A stretch of 64,000 bases of DNA from Buchnera aphidicola (Tetraneura ulmi) (GTDB taxonomy: Bacteria > Pseudomonadota > Gammaproteobacteria > Enterobacterales > Enterobacteriaceae). Position 1 is the first letter of the stretch; every line of letters begins with the position of its first letter. Of the stretch, positions 5,012 through 13,935 are shown one piece after another. The position numbers and the translations under genes were made by a program. Under the pieces are notes generated by a model, which made no database searches, was not told the origin of the DNA, and worked only from the letters and a program-made list of their open reading frames with translations. Location: NCBI RefSeq assembly GCF_964058925.1, contig NZ_OZ060366.1, positions 100,308-164,307 of the forward strand, read 5' to 3'.

Positions 5012-5644
5012 GTGAACAAATTAAAAAGATTAGAAATTTTAAGAATATTCGAAAAAAATGATCCATTTCCAAAAACAGAATTAGAATATAAAAATTCATT
5101 TGAGTTGTTAACAGCAATTTTATTATCTTCTAGAACTAGGGATTCCATAGTTAATAAATCTACAAAAAAATTATTTTTAATAGCAAATAATCCAGAAAAA
5201 ATTATTCGATTAGGATTAAATAGATTAAAAAAATATATAAAAAATATTAATTTTTATAACAAAAAAGCTGATTATATTATTAAAATATCTAAAATTTTAA
5301 ATAAAAAATACTCTGGAAAGGTTCCAGGAACTAGATCTAGTCTATTACAATTACCTGGTGTAGGAAGAAAAACTGTTAATGTATTTTTAAATATTTTTTT
5401 AAAAAAAAGAACAATTGGAATAGATACTCATGTCTATCGTGTTTGTAATAGAACTAATTTTGCTGTAGACAACAATTATCTTTTGTTAGAAAAAAAACTA
5501 ATAAAACTTATTCCTAATAGATTTAAATTGAATTTTCATAATTGGTTTGTTTTGCATGGAAGATACATTTGTACTGCTAGAAAAATGAAATGTAATTTTT
5601 GTTTGATTAATAAACTATGTGAATTTAAAAATAAAAATATTTAA
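5012..5644 (+). CDS. nth: endonuclease III (DNA glycosylase/AP lyase)
   Basis: Removes oxidised pyrimidines and nicks the resulting abasic site. The 210-residue protein aligns with the E. coli one residue for residue up to about 140. The helix-hairpin-helix motif LPGVGRKT carries the catalytic Lys120, Asp138 follows in GIDTH, and the 4Fe-4S cysteines are at 187, 194, 197 and 203. The start is GTG at 5012, giving MNKLKRLEIL like E. coli MNKAKRLEIL; the ATG at 5001 runs into a stop. Oddly, the conserved SAQATD region reads SSRTRD, so position 41 is Arg instead of Gln, and position 81 is Phe instead of Leu. The rnf genes that normally precede nth are absent. Confidence 0.95.
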   Translation: MNKLKRLEILRIFEKNDPFPKTELEYKNSFELLTAILLSSRTRDSIVNKSTKKLFLIANNPEKIIRLGLNRLKKYIKNINFYNKKADYIIKISKILNKKYSGKVPGTRSSLLQLPGVGRKTVNVFLNIFLKKRTIGIDTHVYRVCNRTNFAVDNNYLLLEKKLIKLIPNRFKLNFHNWFVLHGRYICTARKMKCNFCLINKLCEFKNKNI

Positions 5645-5796
5645 TTTTTTATAAATATTTTTTGAAATTTTTTACGACATCTTTGAATATATATAATATT
5701 CATTTATTAATAAAATTTAAATTTAAGATTTGATTTTCAAAGATTATTTTGATATTTTTATTTCTTATAAGAAAACACTATAAAATTGGATACAAT

Positions 5797-8013
5797 TTGA
5801 ATGCAATAAGTGTAGTTTTTCCTATATTTTCGGAAAAAAAATTTGAATATTTGTTTTTAAAAAATGAAATTATAGATGTTTCTATAATAGGGTGTCGTGT
5901 TTTAGCTCCATTTAAAAAATTAAGATTAGTAGGTATTATTGTTTCTTTTAGCTTGGAAAGAAAAGATAATTGTAGAAAGTTAAGAAGAATTTATTCTTTA
6001 ATTGATAAAAATTCTATTTATACTACTAATTTTTTAAGTTTTTTAAATTGGATTTCAAAATATTATTTTCAACCATTTGGTTATACTTTGTTTTATTTTT
6101 TGCCTAAACTATTAAAAAAAAATGGATTTTTGCAAAGAGATTTATTTTTTCAGTGGAAAATAACAAAAAAAGGTAAAAAAATTGATTTAAATATTTTTTC
6201 ATATAATAAAAAATTATTAAATTTTTTAGTAGTTTTAAAAAAAAAAAATATATTTTCTTGTGAATTAATAAAATTTAAAATTTCTTCTTCTTCTTTAAAA
6301 AAATTAAAAAATGATGGATTATGCACCTTTTCTTTGATTTCTAGAAAGGAATCTACTTGGTTAAATATGAATAAATTTAAATTTTTGACAAAAAAAATTA
6401 AAGAAAAAAAAATTTTTTTGAATTTTGGAATATATAGAAAATTTTTTTCTGTATATTTATTAAATTCTATCCAAATAGTTTTTTTAAAGGATATTTTTTT
6501 TATTAGATTATTTAATTTAATTTTAAATAAAGGATCTCAGATATTAATTTTAGTTCCTAACAAAGTTTATGTATATATTTATTTTTCTTACATCAAATCT
6601 TTTTTTGATTTTCCTATTGATTATATACATTCAAAATCTTCTAATAGAAAACATGTTTTACTTTGGAATAAAATAAATAATTCAGAAATTGCAATATTAG
6701 TTGGAACTTCTAGATCTTTGTTTATGCCTTTTTCCTGTCTTGGTTTAATTCTAGTTGTTGAAGAACATGATCTTTCTTATAAAAGATCGGGTTCGATATC
6801 TTTTAATATAAGAAATTTAGCTATTTTAAGAGCTAAAATTGAAAATATTTCAATAATTCTTCAATCAAATACTCCTTCTTTAGAAAGTTTATATAATTTA
6901 AAAATTGGAAAATATAAAAAATTGAATATCAATTTTTTTTCTGAAGACAAAAAACTTAAAATAGTAAAGAAAAATTCGATAAATTTAAATAGAGGCTGTT
7001 TTTATGAAATATTTTCTTATGAATTAATAGAATATATTAAATATTCTTTAGAAAAGAATAACTCTATAATCTTAATTTTTAATGAATCAATACAGTTTTT
7101 TTTTAAATTAGTTTGTAAAAAATGTAATTGGGAAGCAAGATGTTTAATATGTTGTTGTCTTTATGTTTTTGATTTTCAAAAAAATATTTTATTTTGTAGA
7201 AGTTGTTTGTTTAGTATTTCTAAACCATCTGTATGTTTGAGTTGTAGTTCGGTTTTTTTTAAAATCAAAAGATATGGTTTTAACGATTTAATTAAGTTAG
7301 TAAAGGAAATTTTTTTAAAAAATAATAAAAAATATTTTTTTAAAATTTTAAACAAAGATTTTTATTTAGAATTTAAAAAATTAAATTTTAATTATAATTA
7401 TTCCTATATTTTTATATCTAATAAAAAAGAAAATTTATCTATTTTTTCTAATATTCAAAAAAGGATTATTATTTTTTCTTCTATAGATGATATTTTTTAT
7501 TTTTATAGTTATCGTATTTTTGAATATTTTTCTCAGTTTTATTTTCAAATGATTAATTTGTTTTCAAAATGCACTAAGATTATTGAATTTTTCTTTCAAA
7601 CTATCTTTACTAAAGATAATTATCTTATAAATTTAATGAAACATAATACTTATTATAGTTTTTCTAAATATTTGTTTTTTTTTCGTAAAAAAATGAAACT
7701 TCCTCCTTTTACAAACCATGCCATAATAAGTGTTGTTAACGAAGATTTAAATTATTGTATTGATTTTTTTTCTTTTTTAAAAACTATAATTTTTGAAAAA
7801 TGCATAATTAGTTCAGAATCTTTATGGATTTATGGTCCAATATTTAATTTTAAAAATTTTATTTTTAAATATAATTCTCATATTCTTGTTTTACAGACGT
7901 CTACTAGACGTAGTACATATAAATTTTTAAAGAAATTAATTATTATTATTAAAAAAAATAGATATTTTAAAAAAATTAAGTGGAAAATAGATTTAGACCC
8001 AGTTGATTTTTAA
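5797..8013 (+). CDS. priA: PriA-like primosomal protein with lost helicase motifs
   Basis: PriA restarts collapsed replication forks by recognising the fork and loading the primosome. I chose TTG at 5797: with it the phenylalanine of FEY falls at residue 16 as in E. coli, the length is 738 against about 732, and a GGA lies seven to nine bases upstream. The longer frame begins at a TTG at 5749. The N-terminal DNA-binding region, GTSRS, TPS and the C-terminal region ending IDLDPVDF are recognisable. All eight zinc cysteines remain (440, 443, 449, 452, 467, 470, 480, 483). The Walker A slot (about 224-231) reads SIQIVFLK instead of GVTGSGKT, DEEHD reads VEEHD, and the QVAGRAGR motif is absent. 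The frame is otherwise unbroken, so a helicase-dead but structural role is my inference. A pseudogene in slow decay is the alternative. Confidence 0.85.
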   Translation: MNAISVVFPIFSEKKFEYLFLKNEIIDVSIIGCRVLAPFKKLRLVGIIVSFSLERKDNCRKLRRIYSLIDKNSIYTTNFLSFLNWISKYYFQPFGYTLFYFLPKLLKKNGFLQRDLFFQWKITKKGKKIDLNIFSYNKKLLNFLVVLKKKNIFSCELIKFKISSSSLKKLKNDGLCTFSLISRKESTWLNMNKFKFLTKKIKEKKIFLNFGIYRKFFSVYLLNSIQIVFLKDIFFIRLFNLILNKGSQILILVPNKVYVYIYFSYIKSFFDFPIDYIHSKSSNRKHVLLWNKINNSEIAILVGTSRSLFMPFSCLGLILVVEEHDLSYKRSGSISFNIRNLAILRAKIENISIILQSNTPSLESLYNLKIGKYKKLNINFFSEDKKLKIVKKNSINLNRGCFYEIFSYELIEYIKYSLEKNNSIILIFNESIQFFFKLVCKKCNWEARCLICCCLYVFDFQKNILFCRSCLFSISKPSVCLSCSSVFFKIKRYGFNDLIKLVKEIFLKNNKKYFFKILNKDFYLEFKKLNFNYNYSYIFISNKKENLSIFSNIQKRIIIFSSIDDIFYFYSYRIFEYFSQFYFQMINLFSKCTKIIEFFFQTIFTKDNYLINLMKHNTYYSFSKYLFFFRKKMKLPPFTNHAIISVVNEDLNYCIDFFSFLKTIIFEKCIISSESLWIYGPIFNFKNFIFKYNSHILVLQTSTRRSTYKFLKKLIIIIKKNRYFKKIKWKIDLDPVDF

Positions 8014-8187: not shown

Positions 8188-9465
8188 ATGTTTGAAAATA
8201 TAATTGATGATTTAAGATCAAGAAATTTAATTTTTCAAATGAGTAATGAACAAAAAATAGTTGAAAAAATTAAATTGTTTAAATTGCGTTCTGTTTACTG
8301 TGGTTTTGATTCTACTGCTGAAAGTCTCCATTTAGGACATTTGATACCTTTACTAGTTTTAAAACGTTTCCAAAATTTTGGTTTTGTTCCTGTAGTTGTA
8401 ATAGGAGGAGCTACTAGTTTAATTGGAGATCCTAGTTTTAAAAAAAAAGAAAGAGTATTAAATACTGTTAATGATATAAAAAATTGGAATAAAAAAATAT
8501 CGTTTCAGATTTCTTCTTTTTTAAGTTGCGATAATCAATTAAATAATGTAATTATTTTAAATAATTATAATTGGTTTAAAAAATTAGAAATCATTTATTT
8601 TTTACGTGATATTGGTAAACATTTTTCAATTAATAGAATGATTTCTAGAGATTCGGTAAAAAGTAGAGTTGATCGTATAGGAAATGGGATTTCTTTTACA
8701 GAATTTTCTTATAGTTTATTGCAATCGTACGATTTTTATTTTTTATATAAAAAATATAAAGTTAGTTTGCAAATAGGAGGTTCAGATCAATGGGGTAATA
8801 TTGCATCAGGTATCCATTTAGTAAAAAGATTATCTGGAAATAAAGTTTTTGGATTGACTGTTCCCTTACTTGTTAATAGTTCTGGAGAAAAAATAGGAAA
8901 AAGTGAAGGTAAACCAATTTGGTTAGATCCATCTAAAACTAGTCCATATATGTTTTATCAATTTTGGATAAATATAGAAGATAAAGATGTATATTCTTTT
9001 TTCAAGTGGTTCACGTTTTATAGTTGTAAAAATATTGATCAAATGGAATTTGAAAACAATTTAAAAAACAAATCTTTTTGTTGTGATAGAATTAAATTAG
9101 CTAAAGTAATAACAAAATTAGTGCATGGAGAATCAGCAATGAAGTCAGCAGTTCGAATTACTGAATCTTTGTTTTCTGGTAAACTAGAAAAGTTAAAATT
9201 TTCTGATTTTCAACAATTAGAAAAAGATGGTTTATCTTCTGTTAAAATTAAAGGAAATATATCTCTAAAAGAAGCATTAGTAATTTCTTTTTTATCATCT
9301 TCTAATACACAATCAAAAAAAATGATTCTTTCCAATGCAATTTCTATAAATATGAAAAAAGAATTGAATGAAAATCATATTATATCTAATAATGAAAAAT
9401 TATTTAATCGATTTACTCTATTACAAAAAGGTAAAAAAAATTTTTCTTTGTTGTGTTGGGAATAG
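8188..9465 (+). CDS. tyrS: tyrosyl-tRNA synthetase
   Basis: Charges tRNA-Tyr. It is a class I enzyme of 425 residues, the normal bacterial length. The HIGH-type motif HLGH is at 48-51, the substrate-binding stretch QIGGSDQWGN is near 196-204, and the second signature is KIGKS at 235-239 (E. coli has KFGKT). The last 65 or so residues form the S4-like RNA-binding tail. An AGGA lies about a dozen bases before the ATG. The convergent sufA gene begins its stop only 18 bases downstream, and no strong terminator is seen between them. Confidence 0.97.
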   Translation: MFENIIDDLRSRNLIFQMSNEQKIVEKIKLFKLRSVYCGFDSTAESLHLGHLIPLLVLKRFQNFGFVPVVVIGGATSLIGDPSFKKKERVLNTVNDIKNWNKKISFQISSFLSCDNQLNNVIILNNYNWFKKLEIIYFLRDIGKHFSINRMISRDSVKSRVDRIGNGISFTEFSYSLLQSYDFYFLYKKYKVSLQIGGSDQWGNIASGIHLVKRLSGNKVFGLTVPLLVNSSGEKIGKSEGKPIWLDPSKTSPYMFYQFWINIEDKDVYSFFKWFTFYSCKNIDQMEFENNLKNKSFCCDRIKLAKVITKLVHGESAMKSAVRITESLFSGKLEKLKFSDFQQLEKDGLSSVKIKGNISLKEALVISFLSSSNTQSKKMILSNAISINMKKELNENHIISNNEKLFNRFTLLQKGKKNFSLLCWE

Positions 9466-12232: not shown

Positions 12233-12687
12233 TTTTTTAAAATTATTATTCTTTTAATAATTCAATTAAAAAAACTTAACAATTAAATTTTTTTATTTTA
12301 TTAATAATAATTTAATTTATAATTAAAAATTAATGTTTAAGTATTTTAATAATAAAATTTTTTATAAATTTTTCATTTTTTTTGCGAAAAAAATGAATGC
12401 ATAAATATTTTATTTATAATTTTTGTTTTTTTATCTTTTATTGTATATTTTTTTTATTTGAAGTATTGTATGTAAAAAATAAAAACATTGTTTTTTTATA
12501 ATATGAATTACTTTTAATTTTTTTATTCAATAAAAAAAGTCTGTTTAAAAAAAAATTTTTTTAAATAAAAATATAAAATTTATTTTTTATTTTAGTTAGA
12601 TTTTAAAAAAATATATTTTTTTAATAATAGTAAAAGTTATAAAAATTAAAAAATTTTTAATTTTTTTTAAAAATATTAACGGAAATA
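12233..12687. other. spacer before thrS, no editing-domain remnant
   Basis: All frames have frequent stops, with an in-frame TAA ten bases before the thrS ATG. I find no trace of the missing TGS or editing domains of ThrRS. A hairpin at 12372-12397 has an 11-bp stem (TTCATTTTTTT with AAAAAAATGAA) and a TGCG loop. It may end the aroH transcript, but no T run follows on the plus strand. The rest is plain AT-rich sequence. Confidence 0.6.
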
Positions 12688-13935
12688 ATGTTGAAAAATG
12701 AAAATAGAAATATACGATTGGACAAAAAAAGAGACCATCGTATTATTGGGAAAAAGTTAAATTTTTATCATATAAATGAAAACTCTCCAGGAATGGTTTT
12801 TTGGCATTCCGATGGATTGATTGTTTTTAGATTATTAAAAGATTTTATTAGAAAAAAATTACTGGAATACAATTATAAAGAAGTACAAACACCTATATTA
12901 TTAGATGAAATGGTTTGGAAAAAAAGTGGTCATTGGGAAAATTATAAAAATTCAATATTTACAACTTCTTCAGAAAATAGAAGTTATTGTATTAAACCAA
13001 TGAATTGTCCTGGTCATGTAGAAATATTTAATCAAGGTTTAAAGTCGTACAAAGATCTTCCTTTTAGGTTATCTGAATTTGGTAGTTGTCATAGAAAAGA
13101 ACCATCAGGGTCTATGCATGGTTTAATGAGAGTAAGATATTTTACTCAAGATGATGCTCATATATTTTGTAGTGAAGAACAAGTACAAAATGAAATAGAA
13201 ATTTGTATTTCAATGATTTTTGATATTTACAAGATATTTGGATTTAAAAAAATTCATTTAAAGCTATCTACTCGACCAAAAAATAGAATTGGTTTAAACC
13301 AAACATGGGATCGTGCAGAATCAGATTTATTACAAGTATTGAAAAGGAATAATTTGAAATTTGAATATCAAATAGGAGAAGGAGCTTTTTATGGACCTAA
13401 AATCGAATTAATTTTAGAAGATTCTTTAAATCGAATGTGGCAATGTGGAACTATTCAGTTAGATTTTCATTTGTCTAGTAGATTAAATTCTTTTTATATA
13501 AATAAATACAATGAAAAAAAAAACCCAGTTATTATTCATAGAGCAATTTTAGGTTCAATAGAACGTTTTATTGGTATTTTAATTGAAGAATACGCAGGTT
13601 TTTTACCAATTTGGTTGTCTCCATTACAAGTTGTAGTTATTAGTATTAATCCAGTTCATTCGAGTTATGTAGAAAAATTAACAAATAAAATATTTAAATT
13701 AGGAATTCGTGTAAAATCAGACATCAGAAATGTTAAAATAAATGTAAAAATTAGAGATCATACGATTTCTCGAGTGCCTTATATTTTTATATGTGGTGAT
13801 GAAGAAATAAAAAAATCTAAAGTGACTGTACGGACTAGATTAGGTAAAAGTTTCAATCTTGTAGATTTTGGTAGAATTATTAAAAAAATACAATTAGAAA
13901 TATTTACTTATAGTAATCATTATTTGGAGGAATAA
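12688..13935 (+). CDS. thrS: threonyl-tRNA synthetase lacking the editing domain
   Basis: Charges tRNA-Thr. The 415 residues correspond to E. coli residues 228-642 with a constant offset of 227. The zinc ligands Cys107, His158 and His284 match E. coli Cys334, His385 and His511. Class II motifs [11 protein letters not shown] and GAFYGPKIE and the C-terminal anticodon-binding domain are intact. The N-terminal TGS and Ser-tRNA editing domains are missing altogether, and an in-frame TAA ten bases upstream excludes a longer start. GGAAAT precedes the ATG. The 3' end of the gene carries the Shine-Dalgarno of infC, preserving the E. coli thrS-infC coupling. Mischarged Ser-tRNA-Thr would have to be tolerated or cleared by another factor. 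Confidence 0.95.

Follow-up and report, generated by a model that had tools for sequence, protein, structure and literature searches.

The window, by which we mean the whole stretch of 64,000 nucleotides, belongs to a genome of 535,734 bases in three contigs (G000 in our numbering) and contains, between nth and tyrS, a priA homologue of 738 codons without a single internal stop (Table 1). The other five frames across the same interval contain between 36 and 98 stops apiece. The NCBIfam model NF004065 aligns with residues 4–737 of the 738 (E 3.5e-105) and the Klebsiella PriA structure 4nl4 with residues 5–737 (E 1.3e-70). As the NCBIfam scores are below the curated cut-offs (352.8 bits against 858 for the full-length model, 204.7 against 230.35 for TIGR00595), the protein has to be regarded as a divergent PriA; its identity to E. 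coli PriA is 25% overall and 19–31% domain by domain when the linker is excluded. Neither ATG nor GTG is found in frame at the N-terminus, and both candidate starts are TTG. The same start region of the 11 other full-length Buchnera priA copies contains GTG in nine and ATG in seven.

Table 1. Features of the priA locus and its surroundings (window coordinates)
Feature	Position	Strand	Remarks
nth	5012..5644	+	upstream neighbour of priA
priA homologue without helicase motifs	5797..8013	+	TTG start; longer TTG option at 5749
3' DNA-binding domain (PriA_3primeBD)	5812..6105	+	residues 6–103; Pfam E 7.4e-16, above cut-off
winged helix	6148..6327	+	residues 118–177; Pfam E 1.2e-4, 22.5 bits (cut-off 27)
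Walker A slot SIQIVFLK	6466..6489	+	glycines and Thr lost; Lys (6487–6489) kept
GTSRS	6703..6717	+	in priA
Walker B slot VEEH	6757..6768	+	DEEH in E. coli
cysteine-rich zinc region	7114..7245	+	eight of eight zinc cysteines kept; codons start at 7114, 7123, 7141, 7150, 7195, 7204, 7234, 7243
motif VI region	7513..7569	+	NLFSK in place of GRAGR; RIFEY retains Arg569 and Glu572 (E. coli numbering)
QMINLFSK	7546..7569		QVAGRAGR in E. coli
PriA C-terminal domain	7705..8001	+	residues 637–735; Pfam E 1.4e-5, 26.2 bits (cut-off 26.9)
IDLDPVDF	7987..8010	+	C-terminal end of PriA
tyrS	8188..9465	+	downstream neighbour of priA
thrS	12688..13935	+	415 aa, aligned to E. coli ThrRS 241–642

The order of domains is that of E. 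coli PriA: the 3' DNA-binding domain, the winged helix, two RecA-like lobes with the zinc region, and the C-terminal domain. Both proteins also share the eight zinc cysteines and a C-terminal DxDP. An AlphaFold model matches PriA structures best, with a mean pLDDT of only 56.7 and a pTM of 0.54; it was built from five sequences and is poor across most of residues 1–215. A sequence-only reading of this DNA had described a frame extending over all of PriA that retains the eight cysteines, GTSRS and IDLDPVDF, and the coordinates together with the profile and structure matches bear this out. In the aligned motifs we likewise recovered the losses it had named, i.e. the altered Walker A slot, the replacement of the Walker B Asp by Val and the absence of GRAGR. 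In detail, where an active helicase has GxxxxGKT, DEEH and GRAGR, the window protein has SIQIVFLK followed by D, then VEEH and NLFSK. The last residue of SIQIVFLK aligns with the Walker Lys of the E. coli sequence GVTGSGKT and is preceded by one extra residue. Whereas E. coli PriA has GSGKT, DEEH and GRAGR and works with PriB, all three motifs are changed here and no PriB was found above the cut-off.

Actinobacterial PriA is generally described as lacking helicase motifs, and the window protein matches NCBIfam NF011451–NF011455, which we take to be actinobacterial PriA models, only weakly (E 9.2e-10 to 0.31). Divergence is common to both; in extracts of an older survey the actinobacterial proteins are called 'smaller and very divergent' (PMC1193525).

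Among three congeneric genomes priA is present in that of the window only; the two others (G001 and G002) lack it, and their tyrS lies 124 and 372 bases downstream of nth. The gene order was compared in the window and in five priA-bearing relatives. In G032, G188, G206 and G020 nth and tyrS flank a priA frame or remnant, as they do in the window, and in G165 tyrS follows the priA frame, while nth was not found.

Some further observations concern the same genome and its relatives. The window thrS is short, and no match to ThrRS residues 1–240, which presumably include the editing domain, exists anywhere in the window, including positions 12233–12727 upstream of thrS. The ThrRS of the congener G001 matches from residue 1 (to residue 569, where that stretch ends) and that of another Buchnera genome, G102, over 1–642. 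Over 99% of their length, the first 3000 bases of the third contig share 80% identity with pBTc2, a Buchnera plasmid bearing anthranilate synthase genes and named after the aphid Tetraneura caerulescens, and this match identifies the window as DNA of Buchnera aphidicola. Outside the window, at about 12.2 kb of the first contig, dnaN changes frame near a poly-A stretch (L088:3330-3363), which in an essential gene suggests a sequencing error or slippage. Finally, the gyrB-dnaN-groEL-dnaC stretch of 12 of the 34 Buchnera genomes gave no proper DnaA hit (L098, L100-L105, L108, L109, L118, L119 and L125), and dnaA may there be lost or located elsewhere.

Distribution of the helicase loss and residues retained

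A PriA match was obtained in 259 of 295 genomes of the family, which had been sampled evenly. Sixty of these 259 loci, the 30 best and 30 others, nearly all from small genomes, were aligned with E. coli PriA; the row counts given below therefore describe a chosen subset and no census of the family. Two rows without letters in motif I (L060_G118 and L070_G053) were set aside, giving 59 scored rows. Both GKT and GRxGR are present in 29 of them and both are missing from 28, and motif VI alone is lost in G017 and G068. The alignment excludes four genomes that had PriA matches but no locus (G104, G213, G285 and G097). In the first three of these, which belong to one genus (g103) with genomes of about 0.3 Mb, the PriA-like frames are broken by TGA only, and TGA might be read there as an amino acid.

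Of the 28 rows lacking both motifs, 16 are Buchnera-type frames, every one of those aligned, and the remaining 12 come from seven other symbiont genera. The overall picture first drawn from the window, namely that the helicase motifs are gone and the frame and the zinc ligands retained, is upheld, but the loss is no peculiarity of one lineage. In a DnaB tree of 30 genomes, those with an eroded PriA are scattered among helicase-intact relatives. A rough manual count, which assumes that loss is irreversible and relies on a tree of one gene, several of whose nodes are weak, gives at least six separate origins. By parsimony, the most recent ancestor shared by the sampled Buchnera, or an earlier one, had probably already lost the helicase. 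Twelve of the 16 long Buchnera frames are full-length and four are broken or short (G032, G165, G188 and G206). In G020 a remnant with 12 stops in about 240 codons is left, and 17 of the 34 Buchnera genomes have neither a PriA frame nor a remnant. Apparent PriA hits in G263, G186 and G041 were judged by eye, from their translated frames, to be the transcription-repair coupling factor Mfd and were rejected.

Among the 28 rows lacking GKT, which share descent and so represent fewer than 28 independent cases, Gly229 is kept in none, Thr231 in three and Asp320-Glu321 in ten, whereas Lys230, Arg569 and the eight cysteines are kept in all and Glu572 in 27. The Walker Lys is also invariant in a separate alignment of 20 PriAs. 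Of the ten columns in which 11 or all 12 of the helicase-intact rows have Lys, column 230 is the only one to remain Lys throughout the 12 Buchnera and the 13 other eroded rows; Lys544 of motif V, by contrast, is kept in none of the 12 Buchnera rows. Composition alone does not account for the retention of Lys230, as Lys amounts to 12.5% of the residues of lobe 1 in the Buchnera rows. The distance from Lys230 to the WLL anchor is constant in most rows, the window protein having one additional residue and the rows of genus g89 a shifted gap.

Two known systems offer a comparison. The ATPase-dead K230R mutant of E. coli PriA still assembles primosomes, and the PriA of D. radiodurans has no ATPase and does not unwind DNA, yet binds forks and, by native gel, DnaB (both according to extracts of PMC4504706). 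The earlier analogy with K230R is nevertheless inexact, because the mutant has Arg and Lys230 stays in all 28 eroded frames. With the Deinococcus pseudohelicase the window protein shares degenerate Walker A and B motifs within an otherwise conserved PriA. It differs in having Lys where the Deinococcus protein, as described in those extracts, has Arg; throughout the 28 symbiont rows this Lys is accompanied by the loss of Gly229 in all and of Thr231 in 25. It differs further in the presence of DnaT and DnaC in the same genome. In the window protein motif VI is lost as well. As the phyla are distant, the pseudohelicases of Deinococcus and of the symbionts probably have separate origins. A search of the open-licence literature (titles and beginnings of abstracts) turned up the Deinococcus paper (PMC4504706), and none of the matches listed dealt with a helicase-less PriA in insect symbionts.

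Partners of PriA in primosome assembly

When E. coli PriA binds a fork, its zinc region swings, forming a pore round the lagging-strand DNA and exposing the dock for PriB; the PriA-PriB complex next recruits DnaT (PMC10175261). PriB was found above the cut-off in 12 of 69 genomes and in none of the 34 Buchnera, including that of the window; weaker hits in frames of 160–214 aa were taken to be SSB. Of the docking residues named in PMC10175261, the window protein keeps S481 and has three substitutions, D438K, T482V and H483F (E. coli numbering), giving K S V F at this site. Genomes that have PriB retain the dock in 11 of 12 cases, those lacking it in two of 32. In addition, PriB accompanies 10 of 14 helicase-intact PriAs versus two of 31 eroded ones, both of these being just partly eroded (counts made by hand, with G118 classed as eroded on motif VI).

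Of the partners implied by a primosome scaffold, the window genome has DnaT (E 2.1e-14), DnaC (E 4e-102 to E. coli DnaC) and DnaB (E 1.8e-167), with no PriB above the cut-off. DnaT was found in 21 of 80 genomes searched, a set that excludes G010, G120 and G243. Our Buchnera counts refer to the 34 genomes on a FastTree tree (G023 and G167, which were placed outside the Buchnera clade, are not included), and genomes whose sole PriA hit was judged to be Mfd were counted as PriA-less. DnaT accompanies PriA in all 17 Buchnera with a frame (16) or remnant (G020) and occurs in one of the 17 without PriA, namely G102. Fisher's test gave p = 1.5e-8 by tip and 0.0014 by genus, although the test ignores kinship and genus g1 is counted twice. 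Parsimony places four losses of PriA and six of DnaT within Buchnera, one node that merges PriA losses having a support of 0.507. All six DnaT losses lie inside PriA-less clades, three of them on the same branch as a PriA loss; when the losses were placed at random, all six fell inside such clades in 617 of 200000 trials.

DnaC is present in all 34 Buchnera and shows no pattern linked to PriA, and DnaB was found in all eight of these genomes that were searched, two of them PriA-less. The idea that PriA tracks RecBCD was considered and rejected, as a RecC match exists in 15 of the 17 PriA-less Buchnera genomes, all but G061 and G186. This departs from the older survey, which in extract states that every genome with RecBCD or AddAB, one excepted, had PriA (PMC1193525).

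Seven other genera with a fully or partly eroded PriA (g6, g16, g48, g64, g67, g89 and g117) yielded no DnaT, and a hand-over to DnaT is therefore not the whole story there. The mirror image of Buchnera is seen in G151, G130, G085, G091, G256, G176 and G133, where a helicase-intact PriA and PriB are present and DnaT was not found; a mealybug symbiont with priAB and without dnaT or dnaC has already been described (PMC3620526, in extract).

Selection on PriA and its possible function

To compare the domains, columns invariant in 12 helicase-intact rows were scored across the 12 full-length Buchnera rows. The fraction of cells retained was highest in the winged helix (0.98; 4 columns), followed by the zinc region (0.81; 10 columns, of which 8 are Cys), the 3' DNA-binding domain (0.78; 16 columns), the C-terminal domain (0.62; 9), lobe 1 (0.50; 67) and lobe 2 (0.40; 51), so that the contrast between domains rests on few columns outside the lobes. 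The mean identity of the C-terminal domain is 0.27 compared to 0.47 in intact PriA, a drop similar to that of the lobes, and the relaxation therefore extends beyond the motor.

For whole priA, six Buchnera pairs gave dN/dS ratios (NG86) of 0.31–0.61, four pairs from other genera with an eroded PriA 0.18–0.51 and a single helicase-intact pair 0.21, all pairs being formed from copies other than that of the window. In the same six Buchnera pairs GyrB gave 0.16–0.25, DnaT 0.12–0.44 and DnaC 0.02–0.08, i.e. the PriA ratio is about two to three times that of GyrB, although the A+T bias has brought synonymous sites close to saturation and should thereby inflate these ratios. Domain by domain the outcome was mixed: pairwise values are noisy, and the zinc region (about 45 codons) ranges from 0.11 to 0.93 despite its eight unchanged cysteines. 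Buchnera PriA is constrained but under relaxed selection.

The interpretation that we favour, with a probability of roughly two in three, is that the window PriA is an ATP-independent pseudohelicase, a passive fork sensor which recruits DnaT, DnaC and DnaB, evolves under relaxed selection and has since been lost in parts of Buchnera. Judged from its motifs, the protein would neither hydrolyse ATP nor unwind DNA; binding to forks and direct recruitment of DnaT are likewise probable. It would keep the pore-forming and fork-binding parts, with the motor and the PriB dock gone, and would bind stalled forks whose lagging-strand template is already single-stranded. Without PriB it would hand over directly to DnaT and hence to the DnaB-DnaC complex. 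Once the helicase had gone, purifying selection, weaker yet real, would have maintained the pseudohelicase, with both PriA and DnaT disappearing later from several branches. For a role as scaffold only, which we infer, the main support, itself indirect, is that the losses of PriA and DnaT are linked in Buchnera.

Against this it could be argued that the gene is a decaying pseudogene caught before its first stop, PriA being dispensable and motif loss the earliest visible step. Both congeners lack priA, the frames of G032, G165, G188 and G206 are broken or short and that of G020 has decayed, the whole-gene dN/dS is raised compared to GyrB, and the window copy has no ATG or GTG start; moreover, a slow neutralisation preceding decay has been described for a recombination gene of Wolbachia (PMC4224334, in extract). 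However, 738 codons with a GC content of 17.8% and 24 homopolymer runs of seven or more contain no stop or frame break, although some 22 stops are expected once a gene with these codons has drifted by 0.1 neutral substitutions per site. The window copy also keeps 29 of the 31 positions that are invariant across 24 other eroded PriAs, which makes its free decay unlikely. Furthermore, the motif loss is common to all 16 Buchnera frames and thus old by parsimony, and 12 copies are still full-length, whereas a released copy looks like the remnant in G020. We consider the pseudogene explanation doubtful on these grounds, and still less probable that the protein has become a DNA-binding factor with a new use outside primosome assembly, e.g. 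fork blocking or marking. The latter would suit genera g6, g64 and g89, where a GKT-less PriA occurs without DnaT or PriB above the cut-off and without a frame of DnaC length among the matches listed; yet in Buchnera PriA goes together with DnaT, which points to the old pathway, and the positions retained are those of the old PriA. An error of sequencing or assembly masking intact motifs might be suspected from the dnaN frame change and from the tyrS of G032, which matches in two frames, but the replacements keep the frame at each of three separate motifs, and GKT and GRxGR are also missing from 27 other genomes, which refutes it.

Extended from the fork sensor of the window to insect endosymbionts in general, a joint reading would see in these proteins a convergent ATP-independent fork clamp with a non-catalytic role for the Walker Lys and an ordered dismantling of the pathway. 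We put this forward tentatively, as its being wrong is the likelier outcome. The Lys might form a salt bridge or contact a DNA phosphate and so hold the fork-bound shape, a role that K230R would mask because Arg keeps the charge. Dismantling would have begun with PriB and the helicase, continued with the PriA frame and ended with DnaT.

The symbionts would provide a natural experiment, repeated in several lineages, in which fork recognition and primosome assembly have been parted from unwinding. It suggests that the non-helicase role of PriA needs the eight cysteines, Lys230, Arg569/Glu572 and the LPP at E. coli positions 630–632, and it ties PriA to DnaT without PriB, which is testable in E. 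coli. In the symbionts themselves, the loss of the helicase seems to be a step in a gradual dismantling of replication restart.
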